From positions 1 to 64,000 of the forward strand of contig JAOUEV010000007.1 in the NCBI GenBank assembly GCA_029858565.1: a stretch of 64,000 nucleotides of DNA. Direction: 5' to 3'. A model generated the notes under the pieces. That model was not told the DNA's origin, did no database searches, and saw nothing but the letters and a program-made list of their open reading frames with translations. The first letter of the stretch is position 1. The number at the start of each line of letters is the position of its first letter. This stretch comes from Nitrospirota bacterium (GTDB taxonomy: Bacteria; Nitrospirota; UBA9217). The translations under genes and the position numbers were made by a program. Of this stretch, positions 11,037 to 62,807 are shown one piece after another.

Positions 11037-12083
11037 TCATGCATGCCGGGTGAAGATCCCGTCCATCTCGGGCGCGATCTCACAGAAGGCCTTGAGCACC
11101 GCCGGATCGAAGTGCTCCGGCATCGTCCGGCCGTCGCCCTCGGTGATGATCCGGAACGCCGCGGGGTGGCTCAGCGGCGGCTTGTAGGGCCGCCGGCACC
11201 GCAGCGCATCATAGTGGTCCACGAGCATAACGATCCTGGCCGCGAGGGGGATCGCCTCGCCCGCGAGGCCGCGCGGATACCCGCCTCCGTCCCACCGCTC
11301 ATGGTGGCTCAGGGCGATCTCCGCTGTCATCTGGATCCGGGGGAACGCCGACCCGGTGAGGATCCGCTCGCCGATGACCGTATGGGTCTTCATGATATCG
11401 AACTCCTCCGGCGTCAGCGGACCGGTCTTCAGGAGGATGCTGTCGGGGATCCCGATCTTCCCGATGTCATGCAGCTGGGCTGCGAAGGTGATCGTCTCGA
11501 CGAAATCCGGCGGCAGGTCCATGACCCGGGCGACCCTGCCCGAGTACGTTCCGATCCGTGCGATGTGGGTGCCGGTGTCCGTGTCCCGGTATTCGGCTGC
11601 GGCGGTGAGCCTGCGGATCATTTCGTCGCTCATGGTCCGAACCTGCTGCGTCCGCTCGCGCACCTCCTGTTCGAGGAGCTGGTTGTGCCGGAGCATGAAG
11701 TCGCCGTACGCCTTGATCACCAGCAGGTTCCTGAGCCGGATGGTCAGTTCCGTCCGGTCGATGGGCTTGGACAGGAACTCGTTGGCGCCGGCATCGAGAC
11801 CGCGGAGCCGGGATGCCCGGTCGTGCAGCGCCGTCACCATGATGACCGGGATGGTCCGGGTGGCGGGGTCGTCCTTGATGCGCCGGCACGCCTCGTAGCC
11901 GTCCAGGACCGGCATCATGATGTCGAGGATGATCAGGTCGGGCGCGCCGTCACGGGCCCGCTGCACCGCTTCCTCGCCGTTGGCCGCGGTGTCCACGGCA
12001 TATCCCAGGGGGACGATCCAGTTGATGAGCAGACGGACGTTGCTTTCCTCGTCGTCCACGATCAGGATCTTTTCGCCGGGCAT
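11037..12083 (-). CDS. Response regulator with HD-GYP c-di-GMP phosphodiesterase domain
   Basis: A 348-residue protein. Residues 1-125 are a receiver domain: acidic pair in IVDDEESN, phospho-acceptor Asp in LIILDIMMP near 53, and the conserved lysine in FLSKPIDR. A short coiled linker follows. Residues about 150-340 are an HD-GYP domain with [10 protein letters not shown] near 201 and [14 protein letters not shown], the signature that hydrolyses cyclic di-GMP. The gene begins 47 bases after the hybrid kinase in front of it on the same strand, so the two are probably one operon and the kinase may phosphorylate this receiver. It would link the haem-sensing kinase to c-di-GMP breakdown. Confidence 0.92.
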
Positions 12084-12130: not shown

Positions 12131-14815
12131 TCACCGATCCAGGATCTCCCGCACTTTGTGCAGGAGGTCCCGCGGGGCAATGGGCTTCTGGACGAAGTCG
12201 GCGCCTGTTTCGGCAAGCCCTTTGGACGTGAGGGTGTCCATTGTATAACCGCTCACGAAGAGGGCTTTGATGCCGGGACGCGCCTTCCGGATCTCCTCGT
12301 AGGCTTCTTTCCCGCTCTTCTTCGGCATGATCACGTCCAGGATGACCAGTTGGATCGCGTCCCGCTGCTCGCTGAACCGGGCGATGGCCTCGGCTCCGTC
12401 CTGTGCGGGTACGACCTGATAGCCGAAGGACTCGAGGATCGTCCGGGTCATGCTGCGCAGCGCGGCGTCGTCCTCGGCCAGGAGAATGGTCTCGGTCCCG
12501 ACGAGGACGGCGGCCGGGGCCTCCGCCCGGTTCGCCCGGACGGCTTCCTCCTCGAGGAGCGGCAGGTAGACGTTGAAGACCGAGCCGTGGCCCGGCTCGC
12601 TGTAGACGGTGAGGTAGCCGTTGTGCTGCTTGATGATCCCGTAGGAGATCGCGAGGCCGAGCCCGGTGCCTTCCCCGACGGGCTTCGTCGTGAAGAAGGG
12701 CTCGAAGATCTTCTTTTGCGTCTCCGCGTCGATTCCGTGGCCCGTGTCGGCGACCGTGAGGAGCGCATACCTGCCAGGCTTGCCGTAGCCGTAGGCGGCG
12801 ACCTGCTTCGCCTCCATCTCGGTGAGCCGCGTGGCAATCGTCAGGGACCCGCCGTTCGGCATCGCGTCCTTCGCGTTCGTGGCGAGGTTCATCAGCACCT
12901 GCTCGATCTGCCCGGCATCGACCATTACCGGCAGCGGCCGGTCCGCCAGCTCCAGGCGGAGGTCGATGTTCTCCTTGATCAGGCGGCCGATCAATTTCCT
13001 GAGGCCCCGGACGATCTCGTTGAGGTTCACGGTCCGCACGTCGACGACCTGTTTCCGGCTGAATGTCAGCAGCCGCCGGGTGATGGACTCGGCCCGCTCG
13101 GCGGCGGCGAGCACCTCGTGCAGCTGCTCCTTTTCCGGCCGCCCGGCGTCCAGTTTTTCCAGCATCAGCGAGCTGTACCCCATGATGACGTTCAGGATAT
13201 TGTTGAAGTCGTGCGCGATGCCGCCCGCCAGCGTGCCGACCGCCTCCATCTTCTGCGCGTGCCGGAGCTGCTCTTCCAGCTGTGCCCGCTCGTCGGCCAT
13301 GCGCAGGTGTTCGGTAATGTCCCGCTTGACCGCCACGTAGTTGACGATCCGGCCCGCGGCGTCGTGGACCGGCGAGATCGTCGCGTTCTCGGTATAGAGC
13401 GTCCCATCCTTTTTCCGGTTGACGATCCGGCCTTCCCAGGTCCGGCCCGACGTGATGGTGTCCCAGAGGACGCGATAGAACGCATCGTCCTGCCTGCCGC
13501 TCTTGAGGAGGCGCGGGTTCCGGCCGATCGCCTCGGCGCGCGTGTAGCCCGTCACGGTCTCGAACATGGGGTTGACGTACTGGATCGTGCCCTGCGCGTC
13601 GGTGACCACCACGGTTTCGCCCGCCTGCTCGATTGCGACGGTGAGCCGCTCGCGCTCCTGCTCCGCGCGCTTGCGCTCGGTGATGTCCTGGTACAGCCCG
13701 ATGAAATGGTGCGGCGCGCCCGCGGCGTCCCGGATGATCGCGGGACTGATGATGAAGTGGACGATACCGCCGTCCTTTTTCACGAACCGCTTCTCGAAGG
13801 AGGCGAACTCCAGGTCGCCGGCGATCATCCGCTGCAGGTATCCGATCCCGATCGGGACGTCATCGGGATGGGTAATGTCGGAGAAGGTCCTGGTCAGGAG
13901 CTCAGCCTCCGTATATCCCAGCGTCTCGCACAGGAGCCGGTTGACCTTGATGAACCGGCCCGTCAGGTCGACGATGGCCCCGCAGACCGCGGCGTTCTCG
14001 AAGGCGCCGCGGAAGCGCTGCTCGCTCTCCAGCAGCGCCTGCTCCGCGGCGTCGCGGTCGCGCATGTTTTTCCGCAGGCGCCGGCCGATAAACCCGAGGC
14101 CGAGCAGTCCCAGCGCCCAGACCGTGCCGTAGCCGGCCGCCATGGAGCGGGTGTGGAAGCTGATCGCGGCCAGGTGGGATTCGAGCGGGATCGAGCCGCT
14201 GATGCCGCCGCGGATATCGCCGACCCTGTAGCCCTGCTTGGCATGGCACTTCAGGCAGTCCTGCTCTGTGAGCAGAGGCCGCATGAGGCGCAGATGGGGC
14301 TTGCCGTCGAGTTCGACCACGGAGCTGTACTCAGCCTCACCCTGGGCGATCTTCTGCAGGGCAAGGGTCTCCCACGCATCCGGCGCGTTCCCGGGCCGGA
14401 CCGGTTTGAGGCTGGTGACGTGGCCCCGCTGGCCGTAGAGGTCCTTTCCCCGCTCATGGACCTGCCGCATCATGTACGACGGGTTTACCAGCGTCAGGCG
14501 GCGGCCCGAAGGCGTGGTGATGTCGCGCTCCGGCACATGGGCCAGGTAGGGATTTGGCGGCGTGGTGTCCGTGACCGGCACGTACGCCCCGCCGTGGGAG
14601 GCCAGCCATTCCCGGTAAGCGACGTCCTTGATCAGGGCCTCCCGCGCTTCGAACCGCGCCTGGTCGAACAGGTTCCGCGTCACTTCCCGGGTGTCCAGCG
14701 TCAGAAGCAGCACGATCAGGGCGGTCCAGAGCGCTGCAACGGTCCACTGGTAGCGGGTGAGGTTGATCGAACGAAATGCCTCGGGTACCCTGGTATGGTC
14801 GTCGCTTGTAAGCAT
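12131..14815 (-). CDS. DUF3365 (Tll0287-like haem-sensor) hybrid histidine kinase
   Basis: An 894-residue protein starting at ATG 14815 behind AAAGGA; the reading frame runs further upstream without a better site. One transmembrane helix (about 22-42) leads into a periplasmic DUF3365/Tll0287-like domain with a c-type haem motif CLKCH near 188-192 and the family hallmark [13 protein letters not shown] second transmembrane helix is near 228-248. Two PAS domains follow (about 270-510), then HisKA with the phospho-histidine in GGIAHDFNN near 533, a HATPase domain ([13 protein letters not shown]) and a C-terminal receiver with Asp in VILDVIMP near 825. The haem suggests redox or gas sensing. It shares its architecture with the kinase at 60126. 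Confidence 0.92.
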
Positions 14816-14934
14816 GGTCCTTTGTCTTCTGCTGATGGTGTTCTCTCGTAGAGGGCTTCGCCTGTGAGCGTACCGCGCATCAGCCTTCGCACTCATATAA
14901 GTATAGCAGGTTGTCCGACGGCATCGGAGGGTTG

Positions 14935-15312
14935 TCAGACGTTTCCATCGATTCGGATATCCCCGGTCTCCTTCGTTCTACTATATGATTCGGCCAAGAG
15001 ATCGGTCTGCAGCAGGCGGGCAAGGATCTTAGCGTCGAGCTTGTCGGTGTTGATCTTCGCTTCTGCAATTGCCCGGGTTTTGCGTGGATGGACGAGATGG
15101 ATCTCCGGGCTCTTGCCCTCCGGCAGTCCGTAGCAGGAGTAGCGGCCGCCGGTTGCCTCGATGGCGATCTTGCTGTCTACGGGAGGCCGGTCAGCGAAAC
15201 CGATGTGGTCATCCGGCTTATTCTTGAGCCGAACCGTCTCTATGACCTGGCCTTTGTCGTCCATGCCGGCTGCAACAGCGTAAGGCTCATGATAGTTTAC
15301 TCCTACGTGCAT
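14935..15312 (-). pseudogene. IS110-family transposase N-terminal remnant
   Basis: From an ATG at 15312 the minus strand reads MHVGVNYHEPYAVAAGMDD, then KIAIEATGGRY and AKINTDKLDAKILARLLQTD, the DEDD (RuvC-like) N-terminal half of IS110 transposases. Homology fades after SYSRTKETGDIRI and a stop follows, so the serine-containing C-terminal transposase domain is missing. In the middle the usual PVxxFK-like region also looks altered. No terminal repeats are visible, as is usual for IS110. Confidence 0.8.
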
Positions 15313-15769
15313 GGCTGCACCGCAGCTTGGGTTTGTGCCATTCCGCCAGGATGGGCGCCAAATATCCCGTGTATGCGGGATTGGTCCTGTAAGACCGATT
15401 ATAGTCAACGGCTGTTGCAGTCTTTTCCTGTTGTCAGGCTTTAGACGTGCAACTATCGACTGACATCCGGTTCGTTCTCTCCGACCGTTTGTCAGAAAAA
15501 AATGATCTTCCTTGTCTCCAGCCCTACCCTTGGGTAAAAAAACTTTCCTCCGCATGTATGCAAAATTCGACTTACCGCTACAAAGAATAATATCCTGCAA
15601 AAGAACGATTCTTTGTGAGCAAAATCACAGGTGCGTTTTATCACGTCAAGGAAGAGTCTGCTATGCTGATAGGAAGTCGCGGTGATATCCGGAGGGAATG
15701 CTCTCTCTGAGAGAGATGGACCGATTGCCGAACGTTCCCCGTGCCCAAGCAAAAGGAGGACCTGCATCC
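15313..15769. other. Intergenic stretch without a recognised gene
   Basis: It contains the 5' flank of the IS110 remnant and the leader of the HAMP/cytochrome operon. I see no coding pattern and no clear promoter. Confidence 0.4.
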
Positions 15770-16339
15770 ATGCAATTCATCGAAGCGTCATTCACGCGCC
15801 CCTACTATCGAAGAAAACTCTTCTTCTCCACTCTCGTGATCGTCGTGCTTGCATCCCTCTGCGCCGCCGCCGGGCTGCTCGCGGTCTTCCCGTCGGTGTC
15901 CGGGGCCTGCTACGGCGCCGTGATCACGACGCTCCATGCTTTCGAAAGGATGCTGGTCCCGACGATCGCGACGCTTTTCGCGGTCATGACGGGGCTGCTC
16001 GCGCTGGCGGTCTCTTTCCTGCACCTGTTCTATTCCCACCGCATTGCAGGACCGGCGTTCCGGCTCGGACAAGAGGCTGCGCGGATCGGCAGCGGTGACC
16101 TGCGTGCGGATTTTCGACTGCGCCGTAAGGACAACCTGACCGATCTTGAGGACAGCCTGAAGCAGGTGGCCTGCCGGTACCGGGAAACCGTCGATGCTCT
16201 CGAACAGCTGACGTCCGTCCTGGACAGGCAAGCGGCTTCGCTCGACGGATCGAACAGGCCTGCAGTTGAAAAAGCCGTCCGCGAAATGACCGTTGCGGCG
16301 GCCGCCATGGAAAAAATCGTTTCGGAGATACGGGCATGA
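15770..16339 (+). CDS. Membrane protein with two TM helices and a HAMP domain, no output domain
   Basis: A 189-residue protein starting at ATG 15770, 9 bases after AGGAGGA. Helices lie at about 17-40 and 60-83 with a short periplasmic loop of only about 20 residues. A HAMP domain follows (HRIAGPAFRLGQEAARIGSG, then DLRADFRLRRKDNLTDLE), then a helical tail (ALEQLTSVLDRQAASL). HAMP relays signals from a membrane sensor to a kinase or methyl-accepting domain, but here the protein stops after the coiled tail. The stop overlaps the start of the heptahaem cytochrome by 4 bases (ATGA). The second HAMP protein downstream has the same layout. The pair may transmit the redox state of the cytochrome; that is inference. 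Confidence 0.75.
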   Translation: MQFIEASFTRPYYRRKLFFSTLVIVVLASLCAAAGLLAVFPSVSGACYGAVITTLHAFERMLVPTIATLFAVMTGLLALAVSFLHLFYSHRIAGPAFRLGQEAARIGSGDLRADFRLRRKDNLTDLEDSLKQVACRYRETVDALEQLTSVLDRQAASLDGSNRPAVEKAVREMTVAAAAMEKIVSEIRA

Positions 16340-17142
16340 AAAGAGCAATCGTCGGGACGCTGCTGTTCCTTGCAATCGCCGGTTCCCTGTGGTCATCGCT
16401 CCGAACCGGCGTCCATGATTTTACCGGAGACCGCTGCGGCGACTGCCATGCCGTTGCGCCGGTGAAGGGCGACCCGCGGGCGGCAATCATGAAGGCTCCG
16501 ATCAGCGAGCTCTGCGGCAGATGCCATCGAAGGGAGGACACTATTCTCTCCCATCCCGTGGAGATGATTCCTCTTGACGCGGTTGTGCCCCGGGATCTGC
16601 CGCTGTCCTGGGACGGGAAAATGACCTGCAGCACCTGCCACGATATGCACGCGACAGCCCCCCTTGCCGGGGAAGGGCTCCGGCGCTTGCTGCGGCGGCC
16701 CGTCGACGGCCGCGCATTCTGCGAGGTCTGTCATAACCACGGCGTACTCGCTTCACAGGACGGGGCCAGGCACTCGCAGCGGTTGGCTGCGGCTCACCTG
16801 AGGACCAGCGGGAGGCAGAACGTGAGAACCGATAGAGTTTCGAGTTTCTGCATGGAATGCCATGATGGGACTACCGGCCAACTGGTTGCGGTAAAAAACG
16901 GTTCCTGCCGCCGCGTGAGCGGGGCTGATTCGCCCCAGGACCGTTCGCATCCCGTCGGCATCAACTACCGCGCCGCGATGGCAAAACGCGGAGGCCTGCA
17001 TGCGCCGGAAGAAATCGTCGCCAAGATCAAACTTGTCAATGGCCGGGTGAGCTGCATTTCCTGCCACGACCTGTATTCCCGAAATTCGAAATTGCTCGCA
17101 GCGACGCCGACGAACCTGTGCACGACCTGCCATGATAAATGA
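16336..17142 (+). CDS. Heptahaem c-type cytochrome
   Basis: A 268-residue protein with an N-terminal signal/anchor (GTLLFLAIAGSLWSSL). Seven CxxCH motifs attach haem c: CGDCH, CGRCH, CSTCH, CEVCH, CMECH, CISCH and CTTCH, spread along the chain as in NrfH/c3-like multihaem proteins. Extra histidines can act as distal ligands. It should be periplasmic and pass electrons between the quinone pool and outer acceptors, or act as a redox sensor. The start overlaps the upstream HAMP gene by 4 bases, and the second HAMP gene starts 20 bases after the stop, so all three form one operon. CxxCH density is high for its length. Confidence 0.88.
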   Translation: MKRAIVGTLLFLAIAGSLWSSLRTGVHDFTGDRCGDCHAVAPVKGDPRAAIMKAPISELCGRCHRREDTILSHPVEMIPLDAVVPRDLPLSWDGKMTCSTCHDMHATAPLAGEGLRRLLRRPVDGRAFCEVCHNHGVLASQDGARHSQRLAAAHLRTSGRQNVRTDRVSSFCMECHDGTTGQLVAVKNGSCRRVSGADSPQDRSHPVGINYRAAMAKRGGLHAPEEIVAKIKLVNGRVSCISCHDLYSRNSKLLAATPTNLCTTCHDK

Positions 17143-17161
17143 TGCGGAGAGGGAGGAAATC

Positions 17162-17743
17162 ATGAGAACAAACCGCAGGAAGCAGTATTTCATCGACAAA
17201 AGCTATCAGACGAGGTTCATCCTGAGATTCGTCATCGTCACCGCCCTGTGGTCGGCGGCGGCGCTTTTGCTGTTCGCCTGGATCGCACGTCAACGGATCG
17301 AGACGGAGATGTATTCCAGCCATCTCACTATCGCATCGTCCCAAGAACTGCTCCTCCCGTCGGCGCTCTATTCCGAAGGAATCGCGCTGCTGCTCTACTC
17401 AGTCCTGCTTGCCTACGCCATCTTCGACCTCGGAAAAAGGATTTCGGCGCCCCTCTTCATGCTTAAAAAGGACCTTGCGAGGATCGGAGCCGGGGACCTG
17501 GCAATTCCCGTTCGTCTGCGGCCTGGCGACGAGTTTCAGGACCTTGCCGGGGAGGTGGACCGCATGCGCGCAGGATTGGGCTCGCGTTTCGCGGAAATCA
17601 AGGGCGCACAGCAACGGCTATCCCGGGCCGTTTCCGAACTGGATCTGTCCATGCGCCAGGGCCTGCCCCTGTCGGAGCCGATCGGTGAAATCAGGAAGGC
17701 TGCGTCCGCTGCGCAGGAATCGCTGCGCCCATTTACGCTGTAG
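17162..17743 (+). CDS. Second HAMP membrane protein of the cytochrome operon
   Basis: A 193-residue protein. The start chosen is ATG 17162, 5 bases after GGGAGGAA; an earlier in-frame ATG at 17132 overlaps the cytochrome gene. Two transmembrane helices (about 18-42 and 70-90) enclose a short periplasmic segment. A HAMP domain (KRISAPLFMLKKDLARIGAG, then DLAIPVRLRPGDEFQDLAGE) and a helical tail follow. As in the first gene there is no kinase, GGDEF or methyl-accepting domain. The two HAMP proteins share the layout but little sequence, so a heterodimeric four-helix HAMP bundle is possible. Confidence 0.75.
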   Translation: MRTNRRKQYFIDKSYQTRFILRFVIVTALWSAAALLLFAWIARQRIETEMYSSHLTIASSQELLLPSALYSEGIALLLYSVLLAYAIFDLGKRISAPLFMLKKDLARIGAGDLAIPVRLRPGDEFQDLAGEVDRMRAGLGSRFAEIKGAQQRLSRAVSELDLSMRQGLPLSEPIGEIRKAASAAQESLRPFTL

Positions 17744-17844: not shown

Positions 17845-17993
17845 ATGTCCCGCTCCCTTCGCATAGAGTATGCAGGTGCCGTCTATCACATGACTCCCGA
17901 CGAAACGAGAAGAAGCCTTTCTTCTAGGCTGACCAGGATCGCGATAGATTTCTCAATACGCTTCAGCGCGTCAACAGACGGAACCGGTCGTGA
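17845..17993 (+). mobile_element. REP-associated tyrosine transposase (RAYT) remnant
   Basis: An ATG opens MSRSLRIEYAGAVYHM, the hallmark N-terminus of TnpA-REP proteins. The frame then drifts; in another frame 17931-17993 reads DQDRDRFLNTLQRVNRRNRS, matching the next part of the family, before a stop. The catalytic HxH and Tyr regions are gone. It is frameshifted and truncated. Its interest is that several dispersed hairpin repeats lie in this window. Confidence 0.75.
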
Positions 17994-18424
17994 AATGCGG
18001 CTATCATCAAAGCCGGCCTGCACGGCATCTGCCGGTCCACCGTTCGACGATCAGCCGTTGACTGCGAGCATGCGAAATTGCAACAAACGAGACGTAATAA
18101 TCATATGAAGGCACCTCGAACCGTACTGGCGTATGCATCGCGGCAGGCGGGCGGATAGTGTCGTCCGAAGATCTGGCTGATTACCGCGAAGAGCAGCCCC
18201 GCGCCGTGGACGTACCTGACCAGCCGGAGCTTCCCGTCCCCACCATGCGTCTGCGATCAAGAAAACGGGTCCAGAAGAAATGATCAAAAAGCAACGGGGC
18301 CCGCAAGCGAGCGGGCGAGCATGCACGGTCCGTTCTTTTGCTATACTGAGACATTCATATCAGACGATCGCGGCATGCCCTGTCAGAGACCGAAAATACC
18401 AAGCAAGCACATTGGGCCGAATCC
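17994..18424. other. Stretch without a recognised gene
   Basis: I see no coding pattern, hairpin terminator or clear promoter. The part next to 17993 may be more of the decayed transposase. Confidence 0.4.
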
Positions 18425-22669: not shown

Positions 22670-23671
22670 CTACCGGCTCAAAAATGCCTTCGGCGCTCTG
22701 TATTCATGGCACTCAACGCAGGTCTTCTTTGCCTGCGCATCCGTCACGGTCCAGACATGAGGTTTGTGGCACTGCTTGCATTCCATGCCCGTGTCCTGAA
22801 TGTGGAGCTTGTGCTTGCCGATTGCCATGATGTTCTTATGGCACGAGAGGCAGTTGCCCCAGTCGGGCCGCGAGGCCTTGTGCGGCTTATGGCACTCATA
22901 GCAGTTGAACTGCATGGGCCCGTTCTCCGGCCGGTCGATCTTGATCGCCCGTTTGATCGTCTTTTCATCAGGCTGGAAGTGGGTGGTATCCATCGTTCCG
23001 TCAGCCAGCAGTTCCTTCCGGTATTTTTCAGCTCCGTGGCAGTACAAACACTTCTTGATGCCCGGCTTCAGGTCTTTGGTCCTGTCGGTGTGGCAGTTGA
23101 GGCACGGAAGCTTCTCCATCCCCGTCCCGTGCACTTGCCGGTCCTCGTGGCACGTCAGGCAGTATCGTTCTTCAAGGCTGAACTGATGGGTCCGGTAGCC
23201 GTGGCATTTGGTGCATTCGATCTTTTCCATGAACACATGTTTTGCGTGGTACCGCGAACCGGCGATGCTCGGCGCGTTCGGCTCTTTCTCGTTCGTTTCC
23301 CAATGGCAGCCAAAGCAGGTCTTCCAGGGCACGATTACCTCTCCGTGCCTCGGCGAGACCTTATTATGGCCGAGCACGACAAAAGCAAAGAGCTGTTTCA
23401 TCTGGTCGAGCTTGGTTGAATGGTGGCACTCATGGCAGTTCACCCCATGATGCACACTGGTCGACCAGGCTATGTTCGCTTCATCGTGGACATGACAGGC
23501 GGAACATGCCTTGGGATCGTTCTCGAAATAATCGTTGATCAGGTAGGCGGCTACGAGGGCCGCGATCGAGAACAGGACCAGGATCGTTATGATGATGATC
23601 TTCGCCCTGCTGGAAAGCTCCGTGCTGAACCATTCGCTGATTTTGTTGATAAGCTGCTTCGGACTGAACAT
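22670..23671 (-). CDS. Membrane-anchored 11-haem cytochrome c (NapC/NirT-like N-terminus)
   Basis: A 333-residue protein starting at ATG 23671 behind GGAGAGGAG. A transmembrane anchor (AKIIIITILVLFSIAALVAA) lies at about 23-46. Eleven CxxCH motifs follow: CSACH, CHECH, CFGCH, CTKCH, CLTCH, CLNCH, CLYCH, CYECH, CLSCH, CKQCH and CVECH. The layout (one N-terminal anchor, first haem soon after) is that of NapC/NirT-type quinol dehydrogenases, but those carry 4-5 haems, so this one is extended. It should take electrons from menaquinol to periplasmic acceptors. It is a single gene with its own terminator. Confidence 0.88.
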   Translation of the reverse strand: MFSPKQLINKISEWFSTELSSRAKIIIITILVLFSIAALVAAYLINDYFENDPKACSACHVHDEANIAWSTSVHHGVNCHECHHSTKLDQMKQLFAFVVLGHNKVSPRHGEVIVPWKTCFGCHWETNEKEPNAPSIAGSRYHAKHVFMEKIECTKCHGYRTHQFSLEERYCLTCHEDRQVHGTGMEKLPCLNCHTDRTKDLKPGIKKCLYCHGAEKYRKELLADGTMDTTHFQPDEKTIKRAIKIDRPENGPMQFNCYECHKPHKASRPDWGNCLSCHKNIMAIGKHKLHIQDTGMECKQCHKPHVWTVTDAQAKKTCVECHEYRAPKAFLSR

Positions 23672-48609: not shown

Positions 48610-48960
48610 TCAATATTACATAACCTAACGGTGTACTGCCGGATGCGAGATCATAATTCTCGAAGGGATCAGCGCAGCCGGATTCTGCACGCGATGATCA
48701 CCACCCTGTTCGCGTCGGCGCATATCCTTACGCAGGACTGCTCATGCGTTTTCGTGAAGAAACCGCTCTAGCAGGCAGGGGTTATCCGTGCATATGCCGT
48801 ATTGGTTCTAAGGTATTAATCATGCGCGTGCTTTTGGCATAAAAAAAGACGGTATAACAACAAGTTCCAGTGAATGTTTATGTGCTACAATAAATTCAGG
48901 ACGGAACTTCGGCCGCTCGCCAAGCACGAGAGGTGTTTTCCCCTTTGCAAGGAGCAGGCC
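48610..48960. other. Leader region of the giant cytochrome gene
   Basis: No coding pattern is convincing. The frame of the cytochrome is open from 48874, but the ribosome binding site supports 48961. Confidence 0.4.
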
Positions 48961-51900
48961 ATGGAAGTAGCAAAACATCGTTACCTGAAGTTTGCAGCAA
49001 TCTTATGCATTTTGTCAGCTCTCTATTTCGGACCGGGCAGGGGGGCAATCCTCGCACTCGATTCACCGCACAGCCCGCAATCGAGCAGCCGGCCGATGAC
49101 ATGTTCATCGTGCCATATCTCTCCTTCCGGACCAACGCCTCTCTGGAAAACGCTGCCGACATCAACGGACAATACCTATAAGAACAACCTTTGCACAAGC
49201 TGCCACTCAGCGGGAAAACTGACCACCAGCAAGTACGAGGACATCAAGACGCATACCGCCGGCATCACCGGCAGTTCTTATTGGGGTGGCGCCTGGGCGG
49301 TGGAGTGCGTTACCTGTCATTCGCCGCACTTTCAAATGCAGTCCATAACCTACGGTTCCGATCCCGCGATCAAGCTTGCCAGTGGCACTATATCTGCTCT
49401 TGTATCGTCTCCCAACGCCACGATGTCGACTTTGACGGACAGCACGAAGAATTTCATTCCTGACGAGTATATCGGTCATCTCCTCATTCCGAATACAGCC
49501 TATCCGACCGGGATCTACCGCATCAAGTCAAACACCAGCGCCACCGTCACGGTGGAAGGCGCCATCAACCTGAGCCGTACAGGCGTAGGAAAATCCTATG
49601 CGATCCACTACGGGAAGATGATAAACAGCCAGGTGCGCACGCCCGCTAGCGGGAATCTGCCGGTCAGATTCTTTCACAACACAGGCGCGAACTCCTATGC
49701 AACGAGCACGTCACCGACCGGCATGACATCGATATGTCAGATCTGTCATACCCAGACGGCTTCGTTCAACAACAGCGGCGAGCTGGAGGGGCCGCGTCAT
49801 CCTGCGAACAAGGCGGGGACGAACTGCATGGTCTGTCATCCTCACTCGAAAGGATTCAAGGCAGATTGCGCTCTATGCCATGGAGAGCCGCCGGTGAGTG
49901 CGGACCAGTTGGCCGTACCTCCAACGGGTTCAGATAATCCCGGGAAGCACGAGGGGCATGTGTCGAATGCGGGCATTGCATGCGCGGCCTGCCACCGGGA
50001 CTATCAAATGCCCGATGACACGACCCACAGTATTGACATCGGATTCGACAATTTCGGTTCCGGCGGCGGACAGTACCGGGGCCAGTCTGCGGTTAATTAC
50101 CAGGGACGGAACGGTACGGACGTTAGCGTCCGGGACGATTCGCGGATCTGTACGAACATTACCTGCCACAGCACGGGCAACCTGTCCGTGACCGGCGGCC
50201 AGCTTCCGGCCGTCTACGGCGGGAACAAGTACGCATCGCCCCTCTGGATGACCACGGCTCCCGCCGCGGCATGCGGTTCCTGCCATGGACGGAGCACCTC
50301 GACCGGCATGCCGGACTACACGAACGGAGGCGCGGGTTCGACCACGGCAAACAGCCATCCCAGGCACGTGGTGAGCGGCAATATCGAATGCTCCTGGTGT
50401 CATGTCCGAACCGTACCCGCAGGCATGAGTCCGGTGGACTACAGCCAGGGTAAGCACGTGAATGGGAGCAGCCAGGATGTTTACTTCGCGGCGCCGAACG
50501 AGAGCGCCGCGTATGCCGGCGGAACAAAGACCTGCTCGGCGACCTACTGCCACGGAAGCGCCGCACCGCAATGGGGCGGCACCGCGCCCTGCGGGAGCTG
50601 TCATGCCGCCACGGCGGAGACCATTACGAGCGGGAGCCACCAGGTCCATCTTTCCACAACAGGCGGCCGCGGGCCCAATGGGGTGAGCGTCATCGTGACC
50701 TGCGACACCTGTCATGGCACGGGAGCCGTTTCAGGTGCGCACAGCGGTCACGTGGACGGCTCCGTGACCTTTACCGACGTCAATGCGATCGCCGCTACCA
50801 GTGCATGCAATTCCTGTCATAGTCCGGGAGGCGACTATGACGGCGTGAGTGATGCATCCATCGGCGCGAAAACGAACTGGGCCGGCGGGGTCTATTCCGG
50901 AGGCACATTGGCCGCGGGAAAGGAAAAATGGTGCGCTGGCTGCCACGACAAGTCCCCGTCGGTGATAAACACCGTAAACGCGCCTAACATCGCGGGCGAT
51001 GAGTCCGGCTCCTTCATCTACGGCACCGGTTGGGGATTCTATAAGACCGGCCACGGCCTTCCGAGTGCGGGCACCATGCCTGCAAGCGGCGGCGCAACGA
51101 ATGGTCCCGGCAGCAGCTGCACCGATTGCCATGATATATCCAAAGGGCATATCGACGGGGATGCGCGGACCTTTGCTTGCGCCTCCGGCACCGGCGGCGC
51201 CTGCACTACCGCTTACAAGACCGCATATCGTCTGAAGGACGTGGCCGGCGGTTCGCCGCTTGAGATGCCGCCGACAGGTACGAATGCGGAAAGTTTCCGT
51301 CTCTGTTTCAGCTGTCATACCAGCACCGAGGCCTGGCTGACGAACAACCGGGCAGGCACCAACTTCTACCAGGAAGGAACGTCTAGGAACGATCATTACT
51401 ATCACCTTACCGCTGTCGCAAAAACAGCCGAGATCGACTGGGACGGCGCATTCGAAGGGAAAATGTCCTGCATAACCTGCCACAATGTGCATGGCTCCAA
51501 AAATCCGGCCATGATCCGCGCGGATGAACTGACAGGGTTCCCGTCGCTCAGTGTCCGCTACGGCAATGCCGGCAGCACCCACACGGCCGGGCAGATCGAG
51601 CCGGTGCCGAACAATATCACGCTCGTGGAGAGCACCAAGCTGACTATGCTGGGAACCCTGGCAAACACCTATTGTCAGCACTGCCACGGGTCCGGAACCG
51701 CCATTATGACCGTTTCCCGCACTCCGACGGGCATTGAACCGCGTCCGCCTGTGCTTACCTGGGTCGGCTATCCGGGATTCGAGACCGACGGTGCAACGCC
51801 CGATAGCAGCGAGAGCAATAGCGCATTTACCTTCCGTGTCACCTATACGGATATCAATCAGGACGCGCCGACCAAGGTCCAGCTATGGATCGACCTGAAC

Positions 51901-54186
51901 AATGATGGTGATTACAGCGACGCAGGCGAGAAGATCGATATGCAGTCGGCCTTTGTTGTTCTCGACCCCTATGCCCCTTATTCGCGCGGCGTTGACTATG
52001 TCACCACGGTCGCGATCAGCAAGACCGCTCCTGCGGGGAACACCGTTAAATACCGGTTCTACGCGGAGTCGGGCGCAGATGTCGCGACCGGCGCGCCGAC
52101 CAGCGACAGCACTTTGACGCTCCTGAACAAAGCGCCGGTGCTCGCCTGGACGGGGGAGGCTAGCTTCACCGAAGACGGCGTCAATCCGGATTACGGACCG
52201 AAGGACGGGAGCTACGCGTTCCGGATCAGGTATGTCGATGATGACGGCGATTCCTGCCCGGCGAGCGGTTCGGCCGCTATTCAGGTCTGGCTCGATCTGA
52301 ACGGCGACCTGCAGTACGGCGCTGACGAGAAGTTCAACCTGAACGAGGCCGACCCGGGCGATACGAACTGCACGACCTCGGGCGGCGGCAAGCTCTATGC
52401 GCTGGGCGCCATCCTGCCGAACACGAGCGGCGGCAACAAGGTCGCTGCCTACCGGTTCTTCGCAACTGACGGCACGAGCGCGGCAGCCGGTCCTCCCGTA
52501 TCCGGCGGCACGGTCACGGTTGCGGCAACAACGAACAGGCCGCCCTCACTTGCCTGGGACGGCGGCGTCTGTCGGCCGCAGGGCGCCATGCCGCCGAAGA
52601 GCGCGACGAGCTCCTCGATCAACTTCAGCATTCGCTATTACGACGATGACAACCAGTGTCCGGCGAGCGGGACACCGGCGATCCAGGTCTGGGTGGACTT
52701 GGACAAATCCGGATCGTACTCAAGCGGTGAAAAGTTCAATCTTGCCGAGGAATCACCGGCGGACACCGATTGCACGACCGCAGGCGGCGGCAAGGTGTAC
52801 GGCGTGACCGTGGTTCCGACCATGGCTGCTGATGATATTCCCTACGAATTCCACGCGTCTGACGGCATCGACACCGCGCTCGGCGCTCCTGCGACCGTCG
52901 GCGCCACGGTGGATGTCATCGCGGCCACCTATGTTGTAAGACAGGACGGGACCGAGGATTACACGACGATCACTGCCGCCATTGCCGCGGTCGGGGCGAA
53001 CAACAGCAGGACCATCCTTGTGTACAACGGGACCTATGCGGAAAACCTGACCATCACGCAGGACCCACTGACCTTGGTGTCGGCTTGCGGCGCAAGCGAG
53101 ACGATTATCACGTCCGCGGTCGATCCGGTCGTGCATTTCAACCTGAGCGTCGGCAGCGTGTTCGATGGCTTTACGGTCACCGGCGGCGCCGGATCAGGCA
53201 TCAAGGCAACAGGGAACAACTTCAACGGCCTCACCAGCACGCCGTCGATCAAGAACAGCATCATTTTCGGCAACGGAGGCCGGGGCATTTACGGCTACCG
53301 TGCCACGGTCACGATAACAGGTTCGGAGATCTACGACAATCTCGGCGGAGGGGTGTCCCTCTACGCTGGATCGATCTCCGATTCAACGATAAGGAACAAC
53401 TCGGTGACCGGTAACGGCGGCGGGGTCTCGACCGACGCAAGCGACAAAGGAGCGTTCACGCTCACCAATGTCACGATCAAGGACAACAGCGCCAGCGGGT
53501 ACGGCGGCGGGATCTACTGTCAGAACTCGGACGGCGGTTACGCGCCTTCCTTCTCGAAGCTTATCGTGTCGCGCAACACGGGCAGCGTCGGCGGCGGCGG
53601 TTATTTCACTTCCTGCAACCCGACCTTTACAAACAGCCTGGTCGTCGACAACAACGCGGTGAACGGCGGCGGTATGGGCGCCGGGACCTCTGCCTCTACC
53701 TGGTTCCTGAACAGCACAGTCGTGAACAATAGCGCGTCCGCTGACGGCGGCGGATTCTACACCTCCGGTTTGAGCGACACGGTCAACTTCGCCAACAGCA
53801 TCCTCTGGGGGAACCGCGCGAACGGGTCCGGTCATCTCGGCCGTTTCGCCCAATCGAGCGGCAGCGTGGTCAGCGCCTATCTTTATGATTCGATTATCGA
53901 AAACAACGGTGATACCAATATCACCGATGATAATTACTTCAGCACAACGATCTATGTCGCCATTGTCGACGGTGGGGGAAATCATGACGCAGACCCGAAC
54001 TTCATCGACCGGATCAACGGAGACAAGACTATGCGGAATTACCGCGTCCAGTCGCCTTCGATCGCCATCGATCGTGCGGGAAATACCTCGGGCAAGGGCA
54101 TTCCGACCGACGACCTTGACGGGAACAGCCGTCCCGCGGGGAGCGAGGATATCGGCGCGTATGAATATGTTGGCGCCGCGCCTTAG
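48961..54186 (+). CDS. Giant secreted 19-haem cytochrome with Ig-like repeats and C-terminal beta-helix
   Basis: A 1741-residue protein starting at ATG 48961 behind AAGGAGCAGG. A signal peptide ends near residue 33. Residues about 45-910 hold 17 CxxCH motifs and two CxxxxCH motifs (CTNITCH, CSATYCH), the mixed pattern of the CxxxxCH/CxxCH family seen in metal-reducing Geobacter-like bacteria. Three Ig-like repeats (about 925-1320) have the core VQLWIDLNNDGDYS (two similar copies follow). From about 1325 a right-handed parallel beta-helix (YVVRQDGTEDYTTITAAIAA, many GNGG and NNS turns) ends in LDGNSRPAGSEDIGAYEY. It is probably cell-surface or extracellular and could move electrons out of the cell. 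The kinase and diguanylate cyclase genes follow directly. Confidence 0.88.
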   Translation: MEVAKHRYLKFAAILCILSALYFGPGRGAILALDSPHSPQSSSRPMTCSSCHISPSGPTPLWKTLPTSTDNTYKNNLCTSCHSAGKLTTSKYEDIKTHTAGITGSSYWGGAWAVECVTCHSPHFQMQSITYGSDPAIKLASGTISALVSSPNATMSTLTDSTKNFIPDEYIGHLLIPNTAYPTGIYRIKSNTSATVTVEGAINLSRTGVGKSYAIHYGKMINSQVRTPASGNLPVRFFHNTGANSYATSTSPTGMTSICQICHTQTASFNNSGELEGPRHPANKAGTNCMVCHPHSKGFKADCALCHGEPPVSADQLAVPPTGSDNPGKHEGHVSNAGIACAACHRDYQMPDDTTHSIDIGFDNFGSGGGQYRGQSAVNYQGRNGTDVSVRDDSRICTNITCHSTGNLSVTGGQLPAVYGGNKYASPLWMTTAPAAACGSCHGRSTSTGMPDYTNGGAGSTTANSHPRHVVSGNIECSWCHVRTVPAGMSPVDYSQGKHVNGSSQDVYFAAPNESAAYAGGTKTCSATYCHGSAAPQWGGTAPCGSCHAATAETITSGSHQVHLSTTGGRGPNGVSVIVTCDTCHGTGAVSGAHSGHVDGSVTFTDVNAIAATSACNSCHSPGGDYDGVSDASIGAKTNWAGGVYSGGTLAAGKEKWCAGCHDKSPSVINTVNAPNIAGDESGSFIYGTGWGFYKTGHGLPSAGTMPASGGATNGPGSSCTDCHDISKGHIDGDARTFACASGTGGACTTAYKTAYRLKDVAGGSPLEMPPTGTNAESFRLCFSCHTSTEAWLTNNRAGTNFYQEGTSRNDHYYHLTAVAKTAEIDWDGAFEGKMSCITCHNVHGSKNPAMIRADELTGFPSLSVRYGNAGSTHTAGQIEPVPNNITLVESTKLTMLGTLANTYCQHCHGSGTAIMTVSRTPTGIEPRPPVLTWVGYPGFETDGATPDSSESNSAFTFRVTYTDINQDAPTKVQLWIDLNNDGDYSDAGEKIDMQSAFVVLDPYAPYSRGVDYVTTVAISKTAPAGNTVKYRFYAESGADVATGAPTSDSTLTLLNKAPVLAWTGEASFTEDGVNPDYGPKDGSYAFRIRYVDDDGDSCPASGSAAIQVWLDLNGDLQYGADEKFNLNEADPGDTNCTTSGGGKLYALGAILPNTSGGNKVAAYRFFATDGTSAAAGPPVSGGTVTVAATTNRPPSLAWDGGVCRPQGAMPPKSATSSSINFSIRYYDDDNQCPASGTPAIQVWVDLDKSGSYSSGEKFNLAEESPADTDCTTAGGGKVYGVTVVPTMAADDIPYEFHASDGIDTALGAPATVGATVDVIAATYVVRQDGTEDYTTITAAIAAVGANNSRTILVYNGTYAENLTITQDPLTLVSACGASETIITSAVDPVVHFNLSVGSVFDGFTVTGGAGSGIKATGNNFNGLTSTPSIKNSIIFGNGGRGIYGYRATVTITGSEIYDNLGGGVSLYAGSISDSTIRNNSVTGNGGGVSTDASDKGAFTLTNVTIKDNSASGYGGGIYCQNSDGGYAPSFSKLIVSRNTGSVGGGGYFTSCNPTFTNSLVVDNNAVNGGGMGAGTSASTWFLNSTVVNNSASADGGGFYTSGLSDTVNFANSILWGNRANGSGHLGRFAQSSGSVVSAYLYDSIIENNGDTNITDDNYFSTTIYVAIVDGGGNHDADPNFIDRINGDKTMRNYRVQSPSIAIDRAGNTSGKGIPTDDLDGNSRPAGSEDIGAYEYVGAAP

Positions 54187-60125: not shown

Positions 60126-62807
60126 ATGCGGAGCAAGCTGTCTGACGCGGTTCTTGATCCGATCTACCGAAAGTACACACTCCTGGCGCTCCTGGGATGG
60201 ACCCTTCTTGTTGCGCTCCTCCTGGCCTACGTTATCATCGAGCATCGTCAGCAGGATATCTCTATTCTGGCCAATCAGGCCCGGGCGTCGTTCTCCAAGG
60301 ACCTGCTCTACCGGCGCTGGAATGCGAGGCTCGGCGGCGTGTACGCGCCGGTTTCCGACGAGCTTCGTCCCAATCCCTATCTCGCACACGTTCCCGAACG
60401 GGACATCACAACGTCTTCGGGCAGGAAGCTTACGCTTGTCAATCCCTCCTACATGACCAGGCAGGTCCATGAACTGCAGCTGCGGGACGACGGGACCGTC
60501 AGCCATATCACGAGCCTTCGCCCGCTTCGTCCGGAGAACGCGCCTGATCCCTGGGAAAGAAAAGCTCTGGAACAATTCAACCGCGGCGACAGGGAGGTTG
60601 TCTCAGTGGAGCAGGTGGGAGGGGAAGAACATCTTCGACTGATGCGGCCGCTCCGGACCGAGGCGCCCTGTCTTGCCTGCCATGCCCTCCAGGGCTACCG
60701 CGTGGGTGATGTCCTAGGCGGGATCAGCGTTACTCTGCCCGTCAAGGCCGGCTGGCTCCAGCATGACAAAGACCTCATCGAGCCGCTGATCGTCTTCGGC
60801 ACCATGTGGCTGGCAGGCATCGCGGTCATCGCGGCCGGCTCGGCGAAATTGTCCCTCAGGTCCCGGGCGCTCCGTGACAGCGAGGTGCGGTATCGAACGT
60901 TGTTCGATACGATCCAGGACGGCATCTTCCAGGTCGATGAACAGCGGAACATCCGGTTCATCAATCCCGCGGGAGCCCGCATGCTCGGATACGGGCGTCC
61001 GGATGAAGCTGTCGGCGCTCCCCTGTCGCGTCACTGGCAGGATTATCAGGACTACGTATCCTATGAGAATGACCTGGCAAAGCAGAAGCGGCTTGCGTTG
61101 CTCCTGGTCAATGCCGTCCGACTGGACGGAAGCAGGGCCATCTTCGAGCTAACCGCTCGGGCCCTGGAATCGGCCGACGGTGCCGTGAGCGGCCAGGAGG
61201 GTATCTTCCGCGATATCACGGCCCGGATCGAAGCGGGGATCAAGGCGCAGGAGTTATCGAAGACCATGCGGGAGATCCTTGATCACGCGCCATTCGGGAT
61301 CTACCTGGTCGGTGAAGGTGGCGTCATAGAGTATGTCAATCCTGCAATGCTCGCCATCGCCGGTGACAATTATGAGCAGTTCACCGAGATGAACGTTCTG
61401 GAGTTCCCCAACTACCGGGCCATCGGTCTCTCCGACCGCATAGAGAAGGCATTTTCCGGAGAATACTTCCGGATGGAGCACATCGAGTATGTCTCCTATT
61501 TCGGGAACCGGCGCTCGATACGCAACTTTATCGGGATTCCGATCACTGAACGGGGCGGGCGGAAGGTGTTGATGATCGTCGAAGACATTACGCACCGGGT
61601 GACCGCCGAAGAACGGCATGAGAAGCTGCGCGAGCAGCTTGTCCAGGCCCAGAAGATAGAATCCCTTGGACGGCTTGCGGGGGGAGTTGCTCACGACTTC
61701 AACAACATCCTGTCCGCGATCATAGGCTACAGCGACCTTGCCCTTCGCAAGCTGCCTGAGGACGCCCCGGTCGCAAAGGATATCAGGATCATCCGCTCAT
61801 CAGGCGAACGTGCGGCCCAGGTGGCCCATCAGCTCCTGGCATTCAGCCGGAAACAGGTGCTGGAGATGCGCATTGTGGATGTTAACGCGCTGGTTGCCAA
61901 TCTGGCAAAGATGCTGTCCCGACTGATCGGAGAGGATATCACATTCCGGATCCTGAATGGGACCGCGGCCCTGAACGTTCACGCCGATCCCACTCAGGTG
62001 GAGCAGGTTATTATCAATCTGATGGTCAACGCCCGTGATGCCATGCCCAAGGGGGGAGAGTTGATCCTGGAGACCGGGTTAACAGAACTGACGGAAGCCG
62101 ACGCACAGGAGCACCGGGAGATCGTTCCCGGCCGCTACGTACGAATAGCAGTCACGGATACAGGCGTGGGCATGCCGAAAGCGGTGCAGGATCGGATCTT
62201 CGAACCCTTCTTCACGACCAAGGAGATCGGCAAAGGGACCGGATTGGGTTTGGCAACGGTTTACGGCATCGTGAAGCAGCATAAGGGATATATATATGTT
62301 GCCAGCGAACCGCATAAGGGATCGACATTCACGGTCTATCTGCCGACAGAGATGACTGCCGGTGTTTCCGGAGTACGCGAGGAACGGTCCGTAGAACTGC
62401 CCTGCGGCTCCGGCGCAGTGCTGGTGGTAGAGGACGATGAATCGGTACGCAGCCTGGTCGGAGAGATGATCGGGACGCTCGGCTATACGCCGATCATCGC
62501 ACGGGACAGTCTGGAGGCGCTTGAGATCGTGGAGAAGGACCTGCGCCCGATCGAACTGCTGCTGACCGATGTGGTGATGCCGATCATGAACGGGAAGGAC
62601 CTGTCCGACCTTATCCGGTCAAAGCGGCCGGACATCCGAACGGTCTTCATGTCAGGATACACCGAGGAAGTGATCAGCAGGCATGGAATGCTCGATCCCG
62701 GAATCCTGTTCATCCAGAAGCCGGTCACCCCGGCCAAGCTCGCGGCCAAGCTTTCCGAGGCTCTGCAGCCGGTGCCGAGGGACCAGCCTTCCCATGGATC
62801 TTCCTGA
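60126..62807 (+). CDS. Second DUF3365 (Tll0287-like haem-sensor) hybrid histidine kinase
   Basis: An 893-residue protein with the same layout as the kinase at 12131. A transmembrane helix (about 18-40) leads into a periplasmic DUF3365 domain with CLACH near 181-185 and GYRVGDVLGGIS. A second helix is near 218-240. Two PAS domains follow (about 255-490), then HisKA with GGVAHDFNN near 521, HATPase (GKGTGLGLATVYG) and a receiver with Asp in LLTDVVMP near 813. In the periplasmic part [14 protein letters not shown] is shared word for word with the other kinase, so they are paralogues. No HD-GYP gene follows here, so the output must be elsewhere. Confidence 0.92.
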   Translation: MRSKLSDAVLDPIYRKYTLLALLGWTLLVALLLAYVIIEHRQQDISILANQARASFSKDLLYRRWNARLGGVYAPVSDELRPNPYLAHVPERDITTSSGRKLTLVNPSYMTRQVHELQLRDDGTVSHITSLRPLRPENAPDPWERKALEQFNRGDREVVSVEQVGGEEHLRLMRPLRTEAPCLACHALQGYRVGDVLGGISVTLPVKAGWLQHDKDLIEPLIVFGTMWLAGIAVIAAGSAKLSLRSRALRDSEVRYRTLFDTIQDGIFQVDEQRNIRFINPAGARMLGYGRPDEAVGAPLSRHWQDYQDYVSYENDLAKQKRLALLLVNAVRLDGSRAIFELTARALESADGAVSGQEGIFRDITARIEAGIKAQELSKTMREILDHAPFGIYLVGEGGVIEYVNPAMLAIAGDNYEQFTEMNVLEFPNYRAIGLSDRIEKAFSGEYFRMEHIEYVSYFGNRRSIRNFIGIPITERGGRKVLMIVEDITHRVTAEERHEKLREQLVQAQKIESLGRLAGGVAHDFNNILSAIIGYSDLALRKLPEDAPVAKDIRIIRSSGERAAQVAHQLLAFSRKQVLEMRIVDVNALVANLAKMLSRLIGEDITFRILNGTAALNVHADPTQVEQVIINLMVNARDAMPKGGELILETGLTELTEADAQEHREIVPGRYVRIAVTDTGVGMPKAVQDRIFEPFFTTKEIGKGTGLGLATVYGIVKQHKGYIYVASEPHKGSTFTVYLPTEMTAGVSGVREERSVELPCGSGAVLVVEDDESVRSLVGEMIGTLGYTPIIARDSLEALEIVEKDLRPIELLLTDVVMPIMNGKDLSDLIRSKRPDIRTVFMSGYTEEVISRHGMLDPGILFIQKPVTPAKLAAKLSEALQPVPRDQPSHGSS

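Follow-up and report, generated by a model that had tools for sequence, protein, structure and literature searches.

What do two membrane-bound HAMP proteins that carry no output domain do on either side of a multihaem cytochrome? We addressed this question at a locus of a Nitrospirota bacterium (assembly GCA_029858565.1, contig JAOUEV010000007.1), in which the genes HAMP1 and HAMP2 flank the gene for a c-type cytochrome, C7. The window analysed is the stretch of 64,000 nucleotides from positions 1 to 64,000 of this contig, and its features are collected in Table 1.

Table 1. Features of the window, in window coordinates.
Feature	Position	Strand	Description
HAMP1	15770..16339	+	189 aa; ATG at 15770, stop at 16339; HAMP-only
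C7	16336..17142	+	268 aa; seven-haem c-type cytochrome
HAMP2	17162..17743	+	193 aa; HAMP-only
IS110-type transposase fragment	14935..15600	-	Sub-threshold Pfam match; between the kinase and the HAMP1-C7-HAMP2 operon
Hybrid histidine kinase	12131..14896	-	Periplasmic c-haem Tll0287-like sensor; context, membership in the module not implied
Response regulator	11037..12083	-	HD-GYP-type output (PF13487); context, membership in the module not implied
Short frame	17845..18108	+	Starts MSRSLRIEYAGAVYHMTPDETRR; no Pfam match
Eleven-CxxCH cytochrome	22670..23671	-	333 aa; membrane anchor at the N-terminus; about 5 kb away from the trio
Large multihaem protein	48874..54186	+	1770 aa; MtrC/MtrF-like and other multihaem cytochrome domains; GEVED and pectinesterase-like stretches
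Second hybrid kinase of the window	60126..62807	+	Tll0287-like c-haem sensor

The sequence-only reading of this DNA had placed the three genes and the 4-base overlap of HAMP1 and C7 exactly; the gap between C7 and HAMP2, for which it gave 20 bases, is 19 bases (17143-17161). An AAGGAGG ribosome site lies about 10 nt upstream of HAMP1. The description of two HAMP proteins, each with two transmembrane (TM) helices and no output, around a seven-haem cytochrome agreed with the Pfam results, the TM predictions and the seven CxxCH motifs. The short frame downstream of HAMP2 begins in a way that we take to resemble the start of a REP-associated transposase. Farther along the window, the 333-aa cytochrome is a possible quinol-side electron donor, and the 1770-aa protein is probably a large surface cytochrome.

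HAMP1 comprises two TM helices (about residues 18-40 and 64-86), a HAMP domain (87-137), and a helical tail of about 50 residues. HAMP2 has the same plan, with its HAMP domain at 91-141 and a tail of similar length, preceded by a conserved cytoplasmic N-terminal motif, RRxYFIKKxFQxRF. Against a Pfam cut-off of 25 bits, the HAMP match of HAMP2 scored 28.8 bits, while HAMP1 by itself scored 17.5 bits (E 0.005). The HAMP signature is nevertheless evident across the HAMP1 family, in which G94, P95, G109, R118, and D121 are each present in 62-67 of the 68 members (P95 in 67, G109 in 62, D121 in 67), and the canonical HAMP switch residues are retained. Pfam gave nothing besides HAMP in either protein, and thus no output domain C-terminal to HAMP. 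The predicted structure of HAMP2 (mean pLDDT 79) consists of four helices: TM1; TM2, which continues into the HAMP domain; the second HAMP helix, which extends into the tail; and a last helix at the end of the chain. A Foldseek search with this model returned no significant match; the best E value was 0.37, and the weak matches included the Af1503 HAMP and methyl-accepting chemotaxis proteins. The TM helices contain no conserved His, and we therefore dismissed the binding of haem b within them. The conserved His residues are located elsewhere, at the cytoplasmic end of TM2 in HAMP1 (H90, 64/68) and in the periplasmic loop of HAMP2 (H54, 54/68).

The CxxCH motifs of C7 begin at C34, C60, C98, C129, C172, C240, and C262. 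The protein matched Paired_CXXCH_1 with 57.5 bits and starts with a hydrophobic segment, representing a signal peptide or an anchor. Additional His residues at positions 27, 73, 105, 146, 154, and 205 are near-invariant and are candidate distal ligands; a seventh, H193, is found in 70% of the family and is replaced by Arg in the window copy. Their number would be enough for the bis-His ligation of most of the haems. The C-terminal half of C7 is similar to OmcE-type nanowire subunits, with partial-length matches to 7tfs and to 9yuq, a 16-chain OmcE-like entry. An OmcE-type subunit has about 220 residues and four haems and should match over its full length. We rejected this assignment for C7, with its seven haems and only partial matches, and C7 constitutes a separate seven-haem family. 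A structure model of C7, computed without haems, was discarded (mean pLDDT 48.6).

We scanned about 85,000 species genomes with the C7 alignment alone and obtained 80 loci, 75 of which encode all seven haem motifs. In 70 of the 80, a 2-TM HAMP-only gene is present on each side of C7 on the same strand, and three further loci (L105, L109, and L132) are interrupted by a contig end. The genome itself contains a second trio on another contig, each protein of which is 54-60% identical to its counterpart in the window. Since these loci were selected by the cytochrome only and the host has two copies, the arrangement is far above chance. The proposals that the three genes form one operon-like unit and that their neighbourhood is conserved were thus borne out. 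The two observations that could have undone them, an absence of the trio elsewhere and HAMP genes that are fragments of longer proteins, did not materialise: the trio is widespread, and the HAMP genes are full-length, with family medians of 194 aa for HAMP1 and 200 aa for HAMP2 (271 aa for C7) in the 80-locus set. The longest HAMP1 family member has 234 residues. The few longer HAMP2 frames (275 and 339 aa) overlap the upstream C7 gene and are thus best read as start-codon extensions.

The C7 loci came from records labelled Nitrospirota and Deltaproteobacteria/Desulfobulbaceae, plus a single Chlorobiaceae and a single Omnitrophota record. A HAMP2 homologue was detected at E 1e-12 in 21 of 60 relatives, and several families of the phylum contain a seven-haem cytochrome whose gene adjoins a HAMP gene. 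Malonomonas rubra has a C7 without flanking HAMP genes.

The two host copies differ in their surroundings. On contig C109, a tetrahaem cytochrome gene follows HAMP2, as in relatives; it is missing from the window copy on C89. The window copy also has the IS110 fragment upstream, and we regard it as a secondary, perhaps diverging, paralogue. Both copies adjoin a histidine kinase with a c-haem (Tll0287-type) sensor and a receiver-HD-GYP regulator, and on C109 both of these genes precede the operon. We considered a segmental duplication of kinase and module together and rejected it, as the two kinase sensors are 52-57% identical and two others of the ten Tll0287 domains in the genome are about as close.

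The gene neighbourhoods point to electron transfer. Within 5 kb of C7, 60 of the 80 loci encode a further cytochrome of three or more haems. The same interval contains NHL proteins in 28 loci, PQQ propellers in 21, cytochromes with at least ten haems in 21, outer-membrane barrels in 11, and SurA/PpiC-type isomerases in eight. A recurrent layout is HAMP1-C7-HAMP2-PQQ-tetrahaem-NHL-large multihaem cytochrome (e.g., L087). In L110, L111, and L115, the order is OmcE-like, isomerase, barrel, HAMP1, C7, HAMP2, NHL, and 10-haem cytochrome, and the tetrahaem protein of L110 matched the OmcE nanowire structure 7tfs over its full length (E 4.5e-31). Family members of other genomes are likewise encoded in OmcE/OmcS/Oet-type electron-transfer clusters. 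Taken together, an association of the module with cytochrome-based extracellular electron transfer is very probable. In 12 loci (L087, L094, L106, L122-L124, L127, and others), hemE, hemH, and hemG diverge from the trio, and ccsA-like genes are located nearby in three. Small PilZ proteins are encoded beside the trio in L078 (146-436) and L129 (4711-5004), a possible link to c-di-GMP.

The host genome encodes three OmcE homologues, on contigs C131, C41, and C106, and neither HAMP module (C89, C109) is linked to these clusters. The C131 cluster (genome G000; L234, 7824-13213) comprises an OmcE homologue, an NHL protein, a SurA-type isomerase, and a protein of 635 aa that is probably a barrel. 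It is probably a nanowire cluster of the host and has no HAMP module.

In a tree of 68 HAMP1 and 68 HAMP2 sequences, two clades were separated with a support of 0.99 and no misplacement among the 136 sequences. HAMP1 and HAMP2 are thus cleanly split sister families, an ancient paralogue pair of which both halves have been retained. The pairwise identities of HAMP1, C7, and HAMP2 correlate with one another (Spearman 0.53-0.59, uncorrected for the species tree), and in L152 and L222 the two HAMP genes remain adjacent although C7 no longer lies between them. From these patterns, we infer a HAMP1/HAMP2 heterodimer. The mean column information was 2.01 in the HAMP domain, 1.50 in the loop, and 1.02 in the tail of HAMP1; 2.17 in the N-terminus, 1.76 in the loop, 1.44 in the HAMP domain, and 0.91 in the tail of HAMP2; and 3.06 in the loop and 1.63 in the tail of the single-HAMP type. 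In each of the three groups, conservation is lowest in the cytoplasmic tail, and the well-constrained periplasmic loop would suit a periplasmic partner.

We also searched in the reverse direction, from HAMP-only genes in Desulfuromonadales, the order of M. rubra, and read 28 loci, including two of M. rubra. A 5- or 7-haem cytochrome adjoins the HAMP-only gene in 21 of them, and the other seven have a haem-free neighbourhood. The cytochrome-linked HAMP-only loci fall into three groups: OmcS-type clusters, in which a 5-haem cytochrome is followed by the HAMP-only gene; Oet-type clusters, with the order isomerase, 26-haem, 16-haem, propeller, 5-haem, and HAMP; and the HAMP1-C7-HAMP2 trio. The M. 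rubra cytochrome beside a HAMP-only gene matched OmcS (6ef8) with an E value of 2.4e-11, and in L151, L201-L203, and L205 the Oet-type cluster ends with a 5-haem cytochrome gene and, immediately after it, the HAMP-only gene. HAMP-only genes are missing from the clusters of genomes close to Geobacter, which often include a kinase/regulator pair; the best OmcS match among these genomes has 75% identity, and Geobacter sulfurreducens itself was not recovered. The HAMP component of such clusters is thus frequent, yet neither universal nor obligatory. In L222, the adjacent HAMP1 and HAMP2 genes (1255-2502) are followed downstream by a kinase/regulator set and an OmcS-type cluster.

Haem-free relatives (L058-L060, L186, L188, L190, L191, L193, L197, and L207) have the HAMP-only gene beside single-TM proteins. 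A SurA-like protein adjoins it in L058-L060, with an OmpH-like protein as well in L058 and L059, and in L060 a decahaem cytochrome and an MtrB/PioB porin are encoded at a distance of about 1 kb.

We propose that HAMP1-C7-HAMP2 is an inner-membrane dock or gate for a small periplasmic cytochrome in multihaem extracellular electron transfer, whether outward or inward, and assign this reading a probability of about 0.5. HAMP1 and HAMP2 would associate through a HAMP four-helix bundle, and their short conserved periplasmic loops would hold the exported C7 at the surface of the inner membrane. C7 could then exchange electrons with a quinol-level dehydrogenase on one side and the following carriers on the other, in many loci presumably the tetrahaem cytochrome whose gene directly follows HAMP2, with an outer-membrane conduit or filament as the likely destination. 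The HAMP domains would serve as a clamp or a conformational gate and would not pass a signal on to an output fused to them. In the OmcS-type and Oet-type clusters, in which the 5-haem cytochrome has only one HAMP gene beside it, a homodimer might do the same job. We favour the dock or gate because of the conservation of the trio, the HAMP1/HAMP2 split and the adjacency of the two genes in L152 and L222, the electron-transfer neighbours, the HAMP-only genes in OmcS-type and Oet-type clusters of Desulfuromonadales, the weak constraint on the tail, and the similarity of C7 to OmcE. The presence of three OmcE homologues in the host, one of them in an OmcE-NHL-isomerase-barrel cluster, also counts in its favour. 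Counting against it are the lack of linkage between the host modules and the OmcE clusters, the unflanked C7 of M. rubra, the HAMP-free clusters close to Geobacter, the haem-free HAMP-only relatives, and the preserved switch residues. A more far-reaching version, speculative and in our view unlikely, is that the heterodimer has two states, coupled to the redox load of docked C7, by which it gates the passage of electrons between the inner membrane and cytochrome nanowires. HAMP, hitherto known for relaying signals, would in that case have become a functional component of an electron-transport apparatus.

A redox sensor with its output in trans is a serious rival, though on the unlikely side. 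C7 would be the sensor and its redox state would twist HAMP1 and HAMP2; a partner in the cytoplasm encoded separately, such as a kinase, an HD-GYP regulator, or a PilZ protein, would read the coil and tune electron-transfer genes or c-di-GMP, much as a sensory rhodopsin works with its transducer. The well-conserved HAMP signature would be expected for such a device, and candidate partners exist: the c-haem kinase and receiver-HD-GYP regulator beside both host copies, the PilZ neighbours in L078 and L129, and the kinase/regulator pair after the HAMP1-HAMP2 pair in L222. The broader survey argues otherwise. A response regulator, a kinase, or a loosely related gene was found within 5 kb of C7 in just nine of the 80 loci, even by this generous count and in signalling-rich genomes (124 receiver domains above the cut-off in the host), and no cytoplasmic partner gene recurs. 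The tail that a partner would read is the least conserved part of all three HAMP groups, and the sensors of the neighbouring kinases are not uniquely alike, two other Tll0287 domains being about as close. A fixed kinase partner found no support in the neighbour count and the sensor comparison. The sequence-only reading had offered a structural scaffold or a redox relay with a separate partner. Its scaffold half gained from the poorly conserved tail and from neighbours that are mostly exported electron-transfer parts; its relay half was left with sparse signalling neighbours, which nonetheless stand beside both host copies.

Alternatively, the HAMP proteins might act in biogenesis, as helpers in the inner membrane that hold nascent multihaem cytochromes while these receive their haems, fold, or are passed on to the outer membrane. 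The SurA/PpiC-type isomerases, the divergent hemE/hemH/hemG genes, and the ccsA-like genes near the trio would fit this role, as would the OmpH- and SurA-like neighbours of the haem-free solo HAMP relatives (f8 genomes). The small multihaem cytochrome is, however, a far more constant partner than any isomerase or haem gene, and HAMP is not known as a chaperone module, so we consider a role in biogenesis quite improbable. Finally, an accidental or degenerate trio of unrelated neighbours or decaying genes in the window, to which the missing tetrahaem gene, the Arg at C7 position 193, and the upstream transposase fragment might point, is very improbable and is already contradicted at the family level by the gene order that 70 of the 80 independent loci share, the intact frames, and the complete second copy in the genome.

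The dock or gate reading bears on a poorly understood matter, namely the connection of cytochrome nanowires and outer-membrane conduits to the inner membrane and the sensing of their state by the cell. Small membrane proteins that recur as a conserved pair beside small cytochromes in OmcE/OmcS/Oet clusters are a concrete candidate for that junction. Many HAMP-only members fall below annotation cut-offs, which could account for their having been overlooked. M. rubra DSM 5091 has two HAMP-only genes, for neither of which Pfam shows a HAMP domain at E 0.001, and these genes open the idea to study in a cultured organism.

Several known systems share features with the trio. A HAMP domain without an output is also present in Af1503 of Archaeoglobus and in some other proteins, and the HAMP2 profile matched the Af1503 HAMP structures. 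Unlike the trio, with its periplasmic loop of about 25 residues and two distinct HAMP proteins around a cytochrome, Af1503 is one receptor whose extracellular domain is large. In the sensory rhodopsin II-transducer complex, the sensor and the HAMP protein are on separate chains, and the HAMP2 profile also matched the transducer, NpHtrII. The transducer carries a chemotaxis output, whereas HAMP1 and HAMP2 are devoid of any.

The OmcE/OmcS/Oet clusters of Geobacter and the syntrophic sulfate reducers have NHL/beta-propeller proteins, isomerases, beta-barrels, and multihaem cytochromes in common with the trio loci, and several loci place a HAMP-only gene next to a true OmcE or OmcS homologue. They differ in that the clusters close to Geobacter lack a HAMP gene and that C7 belongs to its own seven-haem family. 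The Oet-type HAMP loci fit both the four-gene core (PMC5539420) and the OetABI cluster (PMC10553843) described for the partners of methane-oxidising archaea; the word HAMP is absent from the text of either paper. The Uet pathway of Ca. Tenderia and Gallionella (summarised in PMC10734462) combines tetrahaem, isomerase, porin, NHL, and 11-haem components in a single cluster, as do many trio loci, but its subunits as named in that paper comprise neither a HAMP-only pair nor a seven-haem cytochrome. Our literature search, which took in few subscription journals and left the OmcE structure and ubiquity-of-nanowires papers outside, found no description of the trio or of HAMP-only proteins in such clusters, in line with the sequence-only reading, whose author knew of no such system. 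The trio is probably an unrecognised component of known cytochrome-nanowire and conduit systems.
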